64,000 bases of DNA from Blautia hansenii (GTDB lineage: Bacteria; Bacillota; Clostridia; Lachnospirales; Lachnospiraceae), in the NCBI RefSeq assembly GCF_013304445.1, contig NZ_JAAITA010000001.1:372001-436000 (forward strand), written 5' to 3'. A model generated the notes under the pieces. It was not told where the DNA came from. It ran no database searches and worked only from the letters and a program-made list of their open reading frames with translations. Position 1 is the first letter of the stretch. Each line of letters opens with the position of its first letter. Both the position numbers and the translations under genes were made by a program. Positions 2,239-10,781 of this stretch are shown piece after piece.

Positions 2239-2267
2239 TTGCAAAGAGAGAGAAAAGCTGATATAAT
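2239..2267 (+). promoter_or_regulatory. Promoter of the amino-acid ABC transporter operon
   Basis: TTGCAA (2239-2244) and TATAAT (2262-2267) are spaced by 17 bases. The expected transcript start near 2274 lies just before the tandem AT-rich boxes at 2276-2321. Confidence 0.7.
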
Positions 2268-2338: not shown

Positions 2339-3130
2339 ATGAAAAAGAAAATTTTAGTTATGGCAATGACCGCCGCTATGCTGGCGGCAGCAGGATGTGG
2401 AAGTGGAAAGAGCGCAGAACCGGTGGAGATTTCTTCAAAAGAAGACCTGGCAGATTTAAAGATTGGTGTGCAGATTGGTACTACAGGAGACAGCCAGGCG
2501 ACAGAAGCGGTCAAAGAAGATAAGCAGGTAAGCCGTTTTAACAAGGGAGCCGATGCGATTCAAGCGTTGAAAAACGGAAAAATTGACTGTGTGGTTATTG
2601 ACTCTCTCCCAGCAGAAAAATTTGTGGAAGCAAACGATGATTTGAAAATTGTAGACGGCATTTTTGATAAAGAAGAATATGCTATCTGTCTGAAAAAAGG
2701 CAACACAGAACTGAAGGAAGAAATGAATCAGGCGTTGAAAGAGTTAAAGGAAGATGGAATCTTAGAGCAGATTCAGAGCAATTATCTTGGAGATGAAGTG
2801 GGAGAACACCCCTATGAATCTCCTGCGGACGCAGACCATTCTAAAGGAACGCTTACTATGGCTACCAATGCAGAATTTGAGCCATGGGAATACAAAGAAG
2901 GCGATGAAATCGTGGGGATTGATGCGGATATTGCAAGAGCGATCTGCGATAAAATGGGATATGACCTGAAGATTGAGGATATGGCATTTGAAATGATTCT
3001 GGCTACCGTAGATACCGGAAAAGCAGATTTCGGTGCTGCTGGTATGACCGTCAATGCAGAGCGTGAAAAAAGTGTGGACTTTACGGACACTTATGCGGAA
3101 GCTACTCAGGTAGTCATTGTGAAGAAATAA
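2339..3130 (+). CDS. Amino-acid ABC transporter substrate-binding lipoprotein, apparently circularly permuted
   Basis: The extracellular binding protein of the transporter encoded by the next two genes. ATG 2339 follows GGAGAGG; a lipobox ending at Cys20 (LAAAGC) predicts lipid anchoring. The family is SBP_bac_3 (PF00497), but the order of parts is swapped. Residues 31-145 match what is normally the second half (ISSKEDLADLKIGVQIGTTG, then the lobe 2 and C-terminal helix region). A linker follows (about 146-168). Residues 169-263 match the normal N-terminus (KGTLTMATNAEFEPWEY through VDFTDTYAEATQVVIVKK). The break is exactly at the usual hinge between lobes. All expected segments are present once, so this is not a truncation. 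Ligand: polar amino acid, not further resolved. Confidence 0.9.
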   Translation: MKKKILVMAMTAAMLAAAGCGSGKSAEPVEISSKEDLADLKIGVQIGTTGDSQATEAVKEDKQVSRFNKGADAIQALKNGKIDCVVIDSLPAEKFVEANDDLKIVDGIFDKEEYAICLKKGNTELKEEMNQALKELKEDGILEQIQSNYLGDEVGEHPYESPADADHSKGTLTMATNAEFEPWEYKEGDEIVGIDADIARAICDKMGYDLKIEDMAFEMILATVDTGKADFGAAGMTVNAEREKSVDFTDTYAEATQVVIVKK

Positions 3131-3146: not shown

Positions 3147-3839
3147 ATGTTGGAAAATTTACAGGCATGGTTTCAGCGCTACTTTGTGGATAACGGCGCA
3201 ACCTCTTGGTGGCTGGAAGGTTTGAAAACAACCGTTCTGGTTACCCTGCTGGCCCTTTGTATCGGTGTGGTGCTGGGATTTCTCATTGCCATTATCCGTA
3301 CCACTCATGAGCAGACAGGAAAGCTGAAACTCCTGAATCTGCTGGCAAAGATTTATCTGACGGTTATCCGCGGTACACCGTCCATGATTCAGATTTTGAT
3401 TTTCTATTCCGTGGTTTTTGCCAGTGTGAATCTGAATAATATTATCATCGGCGGAATTGCCTTTGGTATTAATTCCGGCGCTTATGTGGCAGAAATTGTC
3501 CGTTCCGGTATTATGTCTATTGACAAGGGACAGACAGAAGCGGGCAGAAGTCTGGGACTTTCTGCAGTGCAGACTCTGTGGCTGATTATTATGCCTCAGG
3601 CATTTAAAAACGTGCTTCCTGCGCTGATTAATGAGTTGATTGTACTGTTAAAAGAAACAGCTATTATTGGTTATATCGGCACTACAGATATTACAAAAGC
3701 GGCAACTCTGGTACAGAGCCGTACTTACAGTGCGTTTGTGCCTTTGATTTCAGCGGCTGTATTCTACCTGGTGCTGGTTATGCTGCTGACCCACTTTATG
3801 GGCAAACTGGAAAGGAGGCTGCGCAAGAGTGAACACTAA
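3147..3839 (+). CDS. Amino-acid ABC transporter permease (HisM/GlnP type)
   Basis: Membrane subunit of a polar amino-acid importer. About five hydrophobic segments lie within 230 residues. The EAA loop that contacts the ATPase is recognisable as [24 protein letters not shown] (motif around residues 132-154, core [15 protein letters not shown]). The length is normal for the family. It starts 16 bases after the binding protein gene with its own AAGGAGA site, and its end overlaps the ATPase gene by 11 bases, so the three genes are one operon. Confidence 0.93.
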
Positions 3840-4572
3840 AGGAGAAGTTTTGATTCAGGTGCAGAACCTGCAGAAATCTTTTGATGGAAATGTGGTTTTG
3901 GATGGAATTTCCACCGAAATCCACAAAGGAGAAGTTGTGGCTATTATCGGACCTTCCGGTTCCGGTAAATCTACGTTTCTGCGCTCTTTAAACCTTATGG
4001 AGGAACCTACAGGGGGAAAAATCCTGTTTGAAAACGTGGATATTACAGATCCCAAGGTGGATATTAACCGTCATCGTCAGAAAATCGGCATGGTATTTCA
4101 GCAGTTTAATCTGTTTCCACATAAGACCGTGAAGGAAAATATTATGCTGGCGCCGGTGACTTTAAAGCTGATGACCCAGGAAGAGGCTTCTAAAAAGGCC
4201 GATGAACTGCTGGAGAGAGTGGGACTGCCGGATAAAGCAGGAGCCTATCCGGGACGCCTTTCCGGAGGTCAGAAGCAGCGTATTGCCATTGCAAGAGCCC
4301 TGGCTATGAATCCGGACGTTATGCTTTTTGACGAGCCTACTTCTGCCCTGGACCCGGAAATGGTAGGGGAGGTTCTGGAAATTATGAAGGAACTGGCCCA
4401 TACGGGTATGACCATGGTAGTGGTAACTCATGAAATGGGATTTGCAAGGGAAGTAGCCAGCCGTGTGCTGTTTGTGGACGGAGGGAACATTCAGGAGGAC
4501 GCAGAACCTCAGGAATTTTTCGGCAATCCGAAGAATCCCCGTCTGAAAGAATTTTTATCAAAAGTACTGTAA
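3829..4572 (+). CDS. Amino-acid ABC transporter ATP-binding protein (GlnQ type)
   Basis: Cytoplasmic ATPase that drives the importer. Walker [10 protein letters not shown], signature LSGGQKQR and Walker [15 protein letters not shown] are all intact, and the 247-residue length is typical of the HisP/GlnQ family. The GTG start at 3829 lies inside the end of the permease gene, ten bases after AGGAGG, which suggests translational coupling. A strong terminator follows directly. Confidence 0.95.
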
Positions 4573-6387: not shown

Positions 6388-6563
6388 GTGCTATGATAAA
6401 GTCACATTTCAAAAGAAATCTAAAACATCAGGGTCAGTCGGCCGAACAATCCAAAACATGAAAAATCGAAAGCAGGAAAACAGATAAGACTGTTATATGC
6501 TATGTTTTTATGCTGCATGGCACATCCGTGTTCTTTTTCTGGATTCCTGGGAAAGGGGACACT

Positions 6564-9500
6564 ATGAGCAGTCATGGAAAAAGAAAAATACGTATCTGGG
6601 GAGTAGTGCTTTCGCTGCTTCTCTGTCTTTGCACTTTTGTGCAGGCAGCAGAACTTGGAAAAGTAACTATGGAAAGAGGAAGATGGGTGGAATATCCCCA
6701 TTATTGGGGTGTTCATGGCACCTATTTTTATACGGCTCACACGGAACAGGGAGATTATACCGCGTACTGTCTGGAGCCGGACAAAAATTTTGTGCCGCCC
6801 GGAGAGTATGAGCCGGAGATGCAGTCGGACAATGAAGGCCTAAGAGCAGCTCTTTATTATGGTTACGGAGGACCGGGACAGGGAGCCTATATTGATCAAT
6901 CTGCCTATGAAGGTCTGGGAGATTCTTCGCTGGAGGATGCCAAATATGTGCGTACCCATCTGGCGGTTTCTTATTTTTTTGACAGAGAAAATGCATTTCA
7001 CAACATGGATGAAGCAGATGTGAAAAAATCCGGTGTGTGGGAATTTATTGACTGGCTGGAGGGAAGAGAGATTCCTTCCGTTTCTTCCCGGTTTTCCAAA
7101 ACTTCCTTGTCTGCTTATTATGAAAAGGGGACAGATTATCAGAGAACAGAAAGTATACAGTATCTTTCTGAAAATGGAGAAAACAGGATTTCTTTTACCT
7201 GTCCGGAGGGTGTAAAGCTGCATAAGGAATCTACCGGAGAAATTCAGACCGGACAGGTCAGCGTAAGCGCAGGGGAAAGCTTTTATTTTTCCGCACCTTT
7301 GGATACAGCATCTAAAACAGGCGAAATCTGGCAGTCCGGAAAATTGTATGGGGAAAAGGATGGCAGATGGGAAGCCATGGTATTGCCTGCAAAAGGCGAT
7401 TCCCAGACCTCCGGTTATGGATGCTTCCATATAAAAAATGCACAGCCCACAGAATTTCAGGTGAAGTGGACAGTTCTGGGAAACCTGGAGATACAGAAAA
7501 CCGATGCACAGACAGGGGAAGCCGAGGCCCAGGGAAATGGAAGCCTGCAGGGCGCTGTCTATACGGTGAGTAAAGACGGACAGGAAATCGGAAAGATTGA
7601 GACAGACGAAAAGGGCTACGGAAGATTGGAAAATCTTGCAGCAGGAACTTATACGGTAAAAGAGACAAAGGCCCCTGCAGGATACGAACTGGATGCCCAG
7701 ACGTATACTGTGGCGGTACCAGGGCAGGATGGCAGTACGGATGTAAAAATTCATTCAAAAGAAAAACCCATAAAAGTGCGGCTAAAACTGCAGAAAATTG
7801 ACCATGAGACAGGAAAGCCCGTACCACAGGGAAACGGGTCTTTAAAAGGCGCAGAATATACGGTTTATGCGGCCGAGAACATTGGCAGTCTGAAAAAGGA
7901 CAGTCCGGCCGGGAAAATCGTAACGGATGAAAAGGGAATGGGTGTGTTGGAAAATCTTCTTCCTGGAAGTTATTATGTCCGAGAGACGAAATCCTCCCCA
8001 AAATATTTTTTAGATGAAACCAGATATGAAGTTACTTTTCCACTGGATGGAGGAAAAACAGAAGAAGTGATTACCAGCAGAGAGAAGCCCGTAAGAGGAC
8101 AGATTGAACTGCAGAAACAGGATGCAGAAACCGGGGAACACAAGCCGCAGGTCACAGGAGCTGTGTTTGAAGGGGCTGTTTACGGTATTTATGCAGAAGA
8201 GGACATAGGTTCCTTGAAGAAGGGTGAGAAGGTGACTGAAATCAAGACCGATAAAAAGGGGTACGGAAAAGCGGAAAACCTCTTTTGCGGCACTTACCGG
8301 GTAAAAGAATTATCTGCGCCGGAGGGCTATCTTACAGATGAGAAAGAATATGTTGTTACCATACCAGAGGCGGAAGAAGACAGTACACAGCTGAAAATTC
8401 TCATAAACAGTAAAGAAAAACCCATAAGAGGAGATGTGTCCCTTACAAAACTATTAAAAGAGGACCAGGAGGAGGATGGTTTCAAGAAGCCCGGGGCAGG
8501 CATTTCATTTACTTTTACTGAAGTGGGAAACGAGAAAAACCAAGTGACGATTACTACGGATAAAAACGGCTATGCGTCTACAAAAGACGAAAAGTATCCA
8601 CAAGGGCGGCTTCTCTATGGGACTTATCGGGTAAAGGAATCCAACACACCGCAGGGTTATACACCGGCAGCGCCTTTTGAAATCACAATAAAGGAAAAAA
8701 ATCAGACTTTATATTATATTCTGGAAAATGATGAGATTCTGTGCCCGGTAAAAATCGTGAAGACGGCAGCGGATACGGGAAAAGTAATAGCTAAAGAAGG
8801 AACGAAATTTAAAATTCAGAAACAGACAGAAAAAGGATGGGAGGACCAGGAATTTTTAGTTTCCATGTATCCCCAGGAAACCAGACAGACGATTTTTGAG
8901 ACCGATGAAACCGGAAGTTTCCACTTGCCCCAGAAGTTAAAGGCAGGACAGTACCGTGTGGTGGAAATACAGCCGCCCAAAGGCTACGCTCTAAACCCGG
9001 TGCCCTTGGAATTTTCCGTATATAATGGGATGAATCAGGGAGAAAATCTGGAAGTCCTTTTTGCAGATAAACCACAGCAGGGAAAAATTCGTCTTGTGAA
9101 AAAAGATGAGGATACCAAAGAAAATGTGGGAACAGGGTTTGTATTTTCCGTTACTGCCGGGGAAGATATCTATACTGCAGACGGAACGCTTCGGATGAAA
9201 AAGGGAGTAGAAGCTGAGCGGATTACCACAGGAGAAGACGGGACAGCAGTGACCGGGCCTTTGTATCCGGGAAAATATATTTTAAAAGAAGAACAGCCGG
9301 GAGAATATTATGCAGCCAGTCAAAAGGTTTACGAGGTACTTTTGGAGGCGGGAGAGGGAGAAGAAATTTTCCAGGTGGAGTGTGAAGCAAAAAACAGGAA
9401 AACCAGAATTGAAGTTGTGAAGACCGAAGCAGGAGAAGCGGGAAAAACGCTTCAGGGAGCGGAGTTTATACTGTTTGAAGAAAAACAGCTGACACAGGAA

Positions 9501-10781
9501 CAGATTGCGGGAACGGCAGAATTACCAACAGAAGGCGGACAGGTGCTGGTGACCGATGAAAAGGGAACATGTACGGCCGTGAATCTGAAACACAAAACCA
9601 TTTATTATCTGGTTGAGACAAAGGCGCCGGAAGGGTATGCGCATAATGGGAAGCGCTATAAACTGGCGGTAGATGAAAAGGGGCTGATAGATGGAAAAGA
9701 GACTTGCAGACTGGAAATTGAGAATTATCCCATTGTTTTGGAAGTTTCCAAAAAAAGCCAGGAAAGCAAAAAGGAATTAAAAGGTGCCAAACTGACATTG
9801 GAAGAAGAAAATGGTGCTGTACAGGAAACCTGGGAGACCGGAGAGAAACCTCATGTTATAAAATATCTGAAGCCGGGGAATTATATTATAAGGGAAGAAA
9901 AAGCGCCCAAAGGATATAAAACGGCGGCGGAGATACGGCTGGAGGTAAAAGATACGCCAGAAGTCCAGAAAGTCGAGATGACAGATGAATTTTTAAAAGG
10001 AAAATTGTGGGTTACAAAAAAGGATGAAGAAAGCGGAAAGATATTGGGCTCTGGTTTTGTGTTTGTGGTAACGGCAGCAGAAGACATCTGCAGCCCGGAA
10101 GGGGAAATTGTGTGGAAGAAAGGCGATACGGTGCAGGAGATTGTCACAGATGAGAAGGGCATGGCCTGTGCGGAAAATCTGTTTCCAGGAAAATATCAGG
10201 TTGAAGAGAAGCAATCCGGGGAATATTATGCAGTAGACAAAGGAAAACATGAGGCAGAGATACGAGTGACAGAAGGAAACAGTACAGAAGACTGCAGTTT
10301 TACGGTATTCAACAGCAAAACCAGAATTACACTGGAAAAAACAGATGCCCGAAAGAAGAATCCCATGGAACAGGTAGTATTTGTCGTTGCAGAAGCAGAG
10401 GCGTCACAAAAGGAAATGACAAGAAAAGAACTTTTAGAAAAGGGAAAAGAAATAACAACTGACAGAGAAGGAAAAATTTCCCTTACAGAATTGAAACATC
10501 AGAAAGCGTATTTCTTTACAGAAGTAAAGACAAGAGACGGGTATCAGTTGGACGAAACAGTATATCGGATTCCGGTAGATGAACAGGGATTGATAGACGG
10601 GAAAAAAGAGAAGACCTTAAAGTTGGTAAATGAACCTGTTGTGAAAAAAGAAACACCAAAAGCTGCAGAGGCGGTAAAAACGGAAGATGAGAGCAGAGGT
10701 GTGCTGTTTCTGTTTCTTTTAGCAGGCAGTGCCGGTATTTTGGGGGCAGCTTTAAGAGGCAGAAAGAAGAAAAGACACTAG
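6564..10781 (+). CDS. Large secreted surface adhesin: thioester-like domain plus ten Cna-B-type repeats, C-terminal membrane anchor
   Basis: Predicted surface adhesin or pilin-like protein of 1405 residues. ATG 6564 follows GAAAGGGG; an in-frame upstream ATG at 6510 lacks a good site. A signal peptide ends near Ala28. Residues about 40-300 resemble a thioester (TED) domain with Cys69 in YCLEP, but the usual Gln position is His132 (THLAVSY). Ten Cna-B/SpaA-like modules start near residues 307, 406, 514, 625, 729, 842, 949, 1059, 1147 and 1254, most with a KTD- or KKD-like start and an E-(T/K)-APxGY-like motif near the end, as in domains with Lys-Asn isopeptide bonds. The end has a hydrophobic segment (about 1379-1397) and the tail RGRKKKRH, but no LPXTG motif. 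It lies between gpmI and eno on the same strand; no sortase gene is nearby. Confidence 0.88.
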   Translation: MSSHGKRKIRIWGVVLSLLLCLCTFVQAAELGKVTMERGRWVEYPHYWGVHGTYFYTAHTEQGDYTAYCLEPDKNFVPPGEYEPEMQSDNEGLRAALYYGYGGPGQGAYIDQSAYEGLGDSSLEDAKYVRTHLAVSYFFDRENAFHNMDEADVKKSGVWEFIDWLEGREIPSVSSRFSKTSLSAYYEKGTDYQRTESIQYLSENGENRISFTCPEGVKLHKESTGEIQTGQVSVSAGESFYFSAPLDTASKTGEIWQSGKLYGEKDGRWEAMVLPAKGDSQTSGYGCFHIKNAQPTEFQVKWTVLGNLEIQKTDAQTGEAEAQGNGSLQGAVYTVSKDGQEIGKIETDEKGYGRLENLAAGTYTVKETKAPAGYELDAQTYTVAVPGQDGSTDVKIHSKEKPIKVRLKLQKIDHETGKPVPQGNGSLKGAEYTVYAAENIGSLKKDSPAGKIVTDEKGMGVLENLLPGSYYVRETKSSPKYFLDETRYEVTFPLDGGKTEEVITSREKPVRGQIELQKQDAETGEHKPQVTGAVFEGAVYGIYAEEDIGSLKKGEKVTEIKTDKKGYGKAENLFCGTYRVKELSAPEGYLTDEKEYVVTIPEAEEDSTQLKILINSKEKPIRGDVSLTKLLKEDQEEDGFKKPGAGISFTFTEVGNEKNQVTITTDKNGYASTKDEKYPQGRLLYGTYRVKESNTPQGYTPAAPFEITIKEKNQTLYYILENDEILCPVKIVKTAADTGKVIAKEGTKFKIQKQTEKGWEDQEFLVSMYPQETRQTIFETDETGSFHLPQKLKAGQYRVVEIQPPKGYALNPVPLEFSVYNGMNQGENLEVLFADKPQQGKIRLVKKDEDTKENVGTGFVFSVTAGEDIYTADGTLRMKKGVEAERITTGEDGTAVTGPLYPGKYILKEEQPGEYYAASQKVYEVLLEAGEGEEIFQVECEAKNRKTRIEVVKTEAGEAGKTLQGAEFILFEEKQLTQEQIAGTAELPTEGGQVLVTDEKGTCTAVNLKHKTIYYLVETKAPEGYAHNGKRYKLAVDEKGLIDGKETCRLEIENYPIVLEVSKKSQESKKELKGAKLTLEEENGAVQETWETGEKPHVIKYLKPGNYIIREEKAPKGYKTAAEIRLEVKDTPEVQKVEMTDEFLKGKLWVTKKDEESGKILGSGFVFVVTAAEDICSPEGEIVWKKGDTVQEIVTDEKGMACAENLFPGKYQVEEKQSGEYYAVDKGKHEAEIRVTEGNSTEDCSFTVFNSKTRITLEKTDARKKNPMEQVVFVVAEAEASQKEMTRKELLEKGKEITTDREGKISLTELKHQKAYFFTEVKTRDGYQLDETVYRIPVDEQGLIDGKKEKTLKLVNEPVVKKETPKAAEAVKTEDESRGVLFLFLLAGSAGILGAALRGRKKKRH

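Follow-up and report, generated by a model that had tools for sequence, protein, structure and literature searches.

A natural circular permutation in a predicted amino-acid-binding lipoprotein of Blautia hansenii, and a second permuted order in the same family

The window analyzed here is a stretch of 64,000 nucleotides from Blautia hansenii (contig NZ_JAAITA010000001.1, positions 372,001 to 436,000 of the forward strand). An open reading frame on its plus strand starts with ATG at 2339, stops at 3128-3130 and encodes 263 aa; a second ATG in the same frame, at 2318, could also serve as the start. The protein opens with the lipoprotein signal MKKKILVMAMTAAMLAAAGC. As shown in Table 1, the operon is intact. 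The permease and ATPase genes reported in the earlier note do follow the binding-protein (SBP) gene, in that order. Upstream of the SBP gene, the gene at 570-2123 has a terminal SHGCIN-type motif, which we take to be that of L,D-transpeptidases.

Table 1. Features of the SBP locus, with positions in the window and residue numbers of the 263-aa protein (query) or of E. coli GlnBP.
Feature	Position	Strand	Basis
Sigma-70-like promoter match, TTGCAA-17-TATAAT, with TG ahead of the second hexamer	2239-2267	+	Consensus match only
Permuted SBP_bac_3 lipoprotein gene, type A (order lobe 2, lobe-1 C part, lobe-1 N part)	2339-3130	+	Pfam, phmmer, pairwise alignment
Signal peptide with terminal lipobox-like AAGC, Cys codon 2396-2398	2339-2398	+	Sequence
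Lobe 2 segment, GlnBP 100-180	2426-2665	+	GlnBP alignment; domain boundaries from PMC7400645
Second hinge crossing, GlnBP 181-185, kept; query 110-114	2666-2680	+	GlnBP alignment
Lobe 1 C-terminal part, GlnBP 186-224	2681-2797	+	GlnBP alignment
New linker from old C to old N terminus, 18 residues by pairwise alignment	2798-2851	+	
Lobe 1 N-terminal part, GlnBP 5-84	2852-3091	+	GlnBP alignment
First hinge crossing, GlnBP 85-89, kept; query 252-256	3092-3106	+	GlnBP alignment
Lobe 2 first strand, GlnBP 90-95 plus one residue; protein end	3107-3127	+	GlnBP alignment
Polar amino acid ABC permease (BPD_transp_1)	3147-3839	+	Profile search
ABC ATPase; top NCBIfam models GlnQ and TcyN, both under cut-off	3829-4572	+	Profile search

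The Pfam family SBP_bac_3 (PF00497) matched the protein with 117.8 bits (cut-off 26.4), split into two stretches. The best stretch, residues 172-263, was aligned to the start of the model. The other Pfam match, Lig_chan-Glu_bd, was below its cut-off, and no sugar-binding type I family was among the Pfam matches of this protein. A whole-genome search found one further SBP_bac_3 locus above the Pfam cut-off in the same genome.

We aligned the protein with E. coli GlnBP from the MG1655 record. Query residues 30-153 correspond to GlnBP 100-224 and residues 172-262 to GlnBP 5-95, the latter with an alignment score of 180. Apart from scattered gap positions, the alignment misses only GlnBP 1-4, 96-99 and 225-226. 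Both halves are complete. With phmmer against AncQR (4zv1), query 31-151 matched 109-232 and query 166-263 matched 6-104, again in reversed order. The i-Evalues of the two halves were 1.9e-20 and 1.2e-19, the second for query 166-263; these values, together with the conservation of the order in many genomes, exclude a chance match. The segment order is L2-T-N (lobe 2, then the C-terminal and last the N-terminal part of lobe 1) and not the collinear N-L2-T. At the level of sequence, the open reading frame is confirmed as a natural circular permutation of an SBP_bac_3 (cluster F) protein. The earlier note had proposed this order and two complete halves, and the reversed Pfam, phmmer and GlnBP alignments agree on both points. 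It had ended the first half at residue 145; our alignment extends it over residues 30-153 and leaves an 18-residue stretch (154-171) between the halves.

The earlier note had also placed the new ends exactly at the hinge, which did not hold. In PMC7400645, GlnBP is divided into a large domain (5-84 and 186-224), a small domain (90-180) and a hinge (85-89 and 181-185). In this numbering the window protein begins at about 100 and runs out at 95-96, which places the cut at about 96-99, six or seven residues past the hinge. This point is within lobe 2, past its first strand, so the chain keeps both hinge crossings. The old termini, both in lobe 1, are joined by the linker, so lobe 1 is continuous. 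Lobe 2 is discontinuous and, in the GlnBP alignment, carries the new termini together with the lipid anchor. In LAO-BP both termini are on lobe 1 (PMC5087393), a rule from which the 263-aa protein departs. The linker between the old C and old N termini has 14-24 residues (median 15, 72 units); it is 14 residues between HMM segment ends in the closest relatives and 18 by pairwise alignment in the window protein.

PMC7400645 gives D10, A67, G68, T70 and R75 as ligand contacts of GlnBP. Query residues N177, F180, F217, A234, G235, T237 and R242 align with GlnBP positions 10, 13, 50, 67, 68, 70 and 75. The remaining pocket-region positions chosen for the comparison were F13, F50, K115, G117, T118, G119, H156 and D157. 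Ten of the 13 chosen positions are unchanged (F13, F50, A67, G68, T70, R75, G117, T118, G119 and D157). The other three are altered in the alignment: D10 to N, K115 to Q and H156 to I. D10 is a side-chain contact in GlnBP and is N in the window protein.

We calculated dN/dS for the binding domain. The four unsaturated comparisons of the 12 made with the window gene gave 0.037-0.057, rough values because dS was 1.9-2.9. Four pairs of relatives gave 0.014-0.045 at a dS of 0.39-1.56. The L2-T-N order is conserved and under purifying selection, and a decaying gene was rejected on the low dN/dS. The kept pocket positions and the low dN/dS agree with the impression of a working gene given in the earlier note.

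A search for relatives with the same order had also been suggested, and it was productive. The closest named relative, with 99% identity, is in an assembly of Candidatus Blautia stercoravium. A scan of named genomes gave 29 loci. By separate tblastn of the halves, fourteen of these had the permuted order and came from Blautia, Fusicatenibacter, Oliverpabstia and others. Another 14 were canonical, followed by an equivalent permease-ATPase pair, with L030 split over frames; the remaining locus, L015, is interrupted by a contig end. In the family of the window, 288 of 299 genomes had some match to the permuted protein, and 63 of 299 had the L2-T-N order, called type A, by a collinear match at E < 1e-54. 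Segment HMMs agreed in 63/63, including L101, which lost its last segment at a contig end. Three genomes stand outside the 63: G195, in which the match spans tandem canonical domains, G209, which is frameshifted, and G080, which has a divergent type A.

The permuted genes sit in the same kind of operon. Of 61 separate type A units, 57 had a permease in the 1.5 kb downstream, as did 46/46 canonical controls. The four exceptions were L101, which runs off its contig; L098, for which the sequence covered only 1.1 kb; and L102 and L170, where more than 2 kb gave no permease match. By a loose pattern, 67 of 71 type A units have a lipobox-like Cys ahead of the domain. The proteins at L098:1093-2469, L102:1994-2794 and L170:2102-2938 are divergent type A proteins that have no permease match just downstream. 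These may be orphans with other roles.

Matches that were limited to query residues of about 100-262 turned out to be proteins with another order: C-terminal lobe-1 segment, N-half, lobe 2. We call this order type B. For example, phmmer of L090 against AncQR matched query 102-279 to 11-174 and query 35-84 to 183-232. Type B proteins begin at GlnBP about 173 and finish near 165-172. This cut (GlnBP about 170-173) is also in lobe 2, directly ahead of the strand returning to the hinge. The type B profile matched 47 of 299 family genomes at 1e-55, of which 32 were collinear and full-length and 15 were partial or the tandem G195. Segment HMMs gave the type B order in 32/32 of the collinear genomes, and a permease was found downstream of 30/32 type B units. 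The type B loci are L083-L096, L107, L125-L153, L190, L201-L213. Among these, L190:1782-2681 (L221; G168) is very divergent and on a long branch, with no lipobox-like Cys by the pattern used and no permease match downstream. With the second permutation, all three cyclic orders exist in the family. The second permutation in the same family is beyond what the earlier reader could have seen.

Both cuts adjoin the pair of strands through which the chain passes out of and into the hinge. In GlnBP the hinge strands hydrogen-bond, with Y185 bonded to Y85/Y86 (PMC7400645), so the type A and type B cuts are probably close to each other in space. Permuted relatives were sought with profiles of these two cut types only, and other cut points would thus have escaped.

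We extended the search to higher ranks. In the taxonomic order of the window, the type A profile found matches at 1e-25 in 166 of 295 genomes, mostly half matches. Twenty-two of the 295 had a collinear row within one frame, either single-domain or fused to the permease; 14 of the 22 were read and all were confirmed. In the class, 20 of 148 genomes matched at 1e-38, namely nine type A, nine type B and two half matches. In the phylum, the type A profile at 1e-40 matched 4 of 398 genomes, which were three of the window's own family (own genome included) and G650 of another family. The type B profile matched 18 of 398, with a collinear full-length match only in G180. Types A and B thus extend past the family, with presumed Clostridia and G650 as the range seen; the family itself has the highest density. 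On plasmids, 497 records had a match, all below 60% identity. One place spans 80% of the query in 6 of them, and the ten of the 497 that were listed each match in two pieces.

Some relatives are fused or repeated. Twenty-three ORFs, each 501-556 aa long, join the permuted binding domain and the permease in one frame; this number includes copies of a single gene. Others carry arrays: L173:1597-3951, L191:731-3856 and L172:571-5154 have 2, 3 and 5 permuted units ahead of the permease, and their frames are 784, 1041 and 1527 aa long. For some of the segments only a lax threshold (E up to 0.5) was passed. In these arrays the N-to-L2 joints are long and variable (21-27 residues), and the T-to-N joints are alike (14-18), which identifies the permuted L2-T-N as the repeating unit. 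The opposite was seen in L063:1410-4331, where three canonical units with 92-93% mutual identity are fused before one permease: its N-to-L2 joints are identical, and the joints between units (T-to-N) vary. L063 is possibly a picture of a duplication intermediate. We also observed an apparent N-terminal membrane anchor before the binding domains of L172, L191 and L173. At L082:2424-4187 (the same place as L046) there is a tandem pair of permuted SBP genes with one permease and one ATPase after it. At L081:1592-3188 a type A SBP-permease fusion is broken over two frames in the C-terminal lobe-1 segment.

The earlier note had suggested an origin by tandem duplication and loss of the outer halves, with tandem-duplicated forms to be looked for. 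Such forms were found in both registers, permuted in L172, L191 and L173 and canonical in L063, and an origin that needs arrays of this kind is plausible. On the other hand, a search that covered 0.7 kb on the upstream side and 0.5 kb on the downstream side of the separate type A and type B units, the window locus included, found no relic of the lost halves. Relic candidates that were rejected were the neighbouring gene copy in the L046 tandem pair and two near L047 (E 6.8 and 21), taken as chance.

The number of origins was examined with trees. With segments in canonical order, neither type A nor type B formed one clade in any of 200 bootstrap trees. In the binding-protein tree with more rows, the type B proteins L083, L203, L210, L205, L201 and L204 are in a clade with seven canonical rows (100/99), and the main type B group is separate (100/100). 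In the smaller binding-protein tree, the type A group L166, L169 and L154 joins the canonical L193 (97/87). On the partner-gene tree the same group is beside the canonical L174, L193 and L181 (80/98). Many deep forks of the tree with more rows are open, also around L166, L169 and L154, and its bootstrap was unsettled. The trees do not include L081 (the frameshifted type A gene of G209), L015 (at a contig end), L030 (canonical, with split frames), L191 (an array of three units) or repeated copies of a single gene.

On the binding-protein tree (209 columns), a single origin per type was not rejected by the AU test (p 0.083 for A and 0.163 for B), nor for A without the array group (p 0.113) or for B with more rows (p 0.161). 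On the permease+ATPase tree (462 columns), a single origin of type B was rejected with 13 rows (AU p 0.0073), as was a single origin of the groups A main and A2 with 11 of 22 type A rows (AU p 0.0024), the groups having been named after the trees were seen. Swaps of binding-protein genes between operons could imitate multiple origins on this tree. At least four changes of order are likely, though not proven.

Judged from sequence, the 263-aa gene very probably encodes a naturally permuted predicted amino-acid-binding protein with a lipid anchor, part of an ABC importer that has a single permease gene and a single ATPase gene. By the alignments, its chain starts in lobe 2, passes over the hinge into lobe 1, completes all of lobe 1, returns over the hinge and ends after the first strand of lobe 2. 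It would be expected to fold as a normal two-lobed binding protein, to close on a polar amino acid, and to dock in the usual way on a homodimeric permease and deliver its ligand. The practical change would be that the lipid anchor, or the permease in the fused relatives, is tied to lobe 2 in place of lobe 1. The order may have arisen by tandem duplication of the binding domain and loss of outer segments, probably more than one time.

Whether the change matters to the cell is a separate question. The permutation may be real and of no functional consequence: with long tethers and a pseudo-symmetric homodimeric permease, the orders would simply drift. We give this reading, which is compatible with the one preferred above, slightly less than an even chance. 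It fits with the finding that canonical, type A and type B proteins all precede the same kind of permease and ATPase, and with the several changes of order in the trees. It fits less well with the position of the ends, which both known types put in lobe 2, within a search limited to these two profiles. Also, no genome of the 63 with type A and the 32 with type B has both, compared with 6.7 expected (hypergeometric 0.0003), a statistic that ignores relatedness and the limit of eight scored candidates in each genome.

That both cuts bring the ends to lobe 2 suggests selection on the geometry of the tether, although plain drift, with a pseudo-symmetric permease as partner, has at least the same likelihood. 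A wider proposal is that amino-acid-binding SBPs of Clostridia were permuted repeatedly (at least A main, A2, B1 and B2) by cuts in two lobe 2 loops beside the strands that lead to the hinge, were selected for a tether that is shifted to lobe 2 from lobe 1 while hinge and pocket stay intact, and passed through permease-fused arrays as intermediates. As a whole this proposal is tentative, and we think it somewhat more apt to be wrong than right.

A domain swap is improbable. In such a swap the N-half would pair with a neighbouring molecule's lobe-2/C-part, so that single units would form a dimer and arrays a string of canonical pairs. The arrangement is open to any permuted or tandem protein, and in (L2-T-N)n arrays every inner N precedes an L2, as in a canonical domain. 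It is opposed by the T-to-N linker, whose length is conserved and is as long as the working 12-residue linker of cpLAO-BP, and by the array joints, which mark L2-T-N as the unit, with canonical L063 the opposite. An assembly or annotation artefact has a negligible chance; many relatives are metagenome assemblies, but the permuted order is in isolate records (Blautia sp. An81, Fusicatenibacter saccharivorans D41t1 and Oliverpabstia intestinalis BSM-380) and in all 63 counted genomes, which refutes it. The notion that the canonical N-half is absent and the C-terminal match is another domain, raised in the earlier note as what would overturn its reading, is equally remote and is refuted by the GlnBP and AncQR alignments of residues 172-262 and 166-263.

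Compared with GlnBP, AncQR and the GlnPQ SBDs (SBP_bac_3, cluster F/type II), the window protein lacks no segment, and it keeps the two hinge crossings and most of the pocket. It shares with them the SBP-permease-ATPase operon, and its lipoprotein signal is like that of the Gram-positive members. It differs from them in its L2-T-N order in place of N-L2-T, in its ends and anchor on lobe 2, and in its continuous lobe 1 and discontinuous lobe 2.

The earlier note knew of no description of such an arrangement. Among the literature matches listed, with most subscription papers out of reach, no natural permuted SBP_bac_3 or amino-acid-binding protein was found, which agrees with that statement. The idea of a permuted binding protein does have precedents, one natural and one engineered. 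The one natural case of a permuted ABC binding protein found among the matches listed is TpMglB-2 (Tp0684), of another fold cluster. As described in PMC4990184, it is a lipid-anchored protein that binds its ligand and was proposed as 'Type Ic / Cluster Bc'. It has a glucose-binding type I/cluster B fold, in which three N-lobe strands are moved to the C-terminus and a fourth crossing is added; its relatives include Gram-positive gut bacteria (same source). On this account, both proteins are natural permutations with a lipid anchor, and the window protein differs in belonging to cluster F, in its unchanged crossings and in having its ends on the other lobe. By its Pfam matches, the 263-aa protein is outside the TpMglB-2-like class, which has a type I sugar-binding fold, MglB homology and a fourth crossing. 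By analogy with TpMglB-2, from another fold cluster, the view that a natural permuted binding protein can work is supported.

The engineered case is the FRET sensor cpLAO-BP. In PMC5087393, one interdomain linker was removed, the old ends were joined by (GGS)4, and the protein binds lysine with a Kd of 107 uM, about 36-fold weaker than the 3 uM reported for the E. coli protein. It has the same fold cluster as the window protein and also has its old ends joined by a linker, of 12 residues. In contrast, it is artificial with one new end per lobe, whereas the window protein is natural and opened within lobe 2. The analogy with cpLAO-BP supports the view that a permuted protein of the cluster F fold can bind ligand. 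Its weaker lysine binding, as given there, indicates that permutation may carry a cost.

Among PDB chains (the best 60 of 76 for the type A profile and the best 60 of 83 for type B), only 6h30 had a best stretch that spans the old C-N junction. This GlnPQ chain shares with the arrays the tandem binding domains of a fused transporter. Its domains are in the canonical register; the arrays L172, L173 and L191 are in the permuted register.

One family thus has the canonical order, two permuted orders, fusions and arrays, all before homologous permeases. With these orders side by side, natural sequences are at hand for testing how permutation affects hinge dynamics, ligand affinity and docking. The proteins also offer natural permuted amino-acid-binding scaffolds for biosensor design. 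Annotation that depends on order can score permuted SBPs as two half matches.

Elsewhere in the window, at 6510-10781, an ORF of 1423 aa is built of repeated domains with a C-terminal membrane anchor. The repeats presumably resemble Cna-B/SpaA pilin modules.
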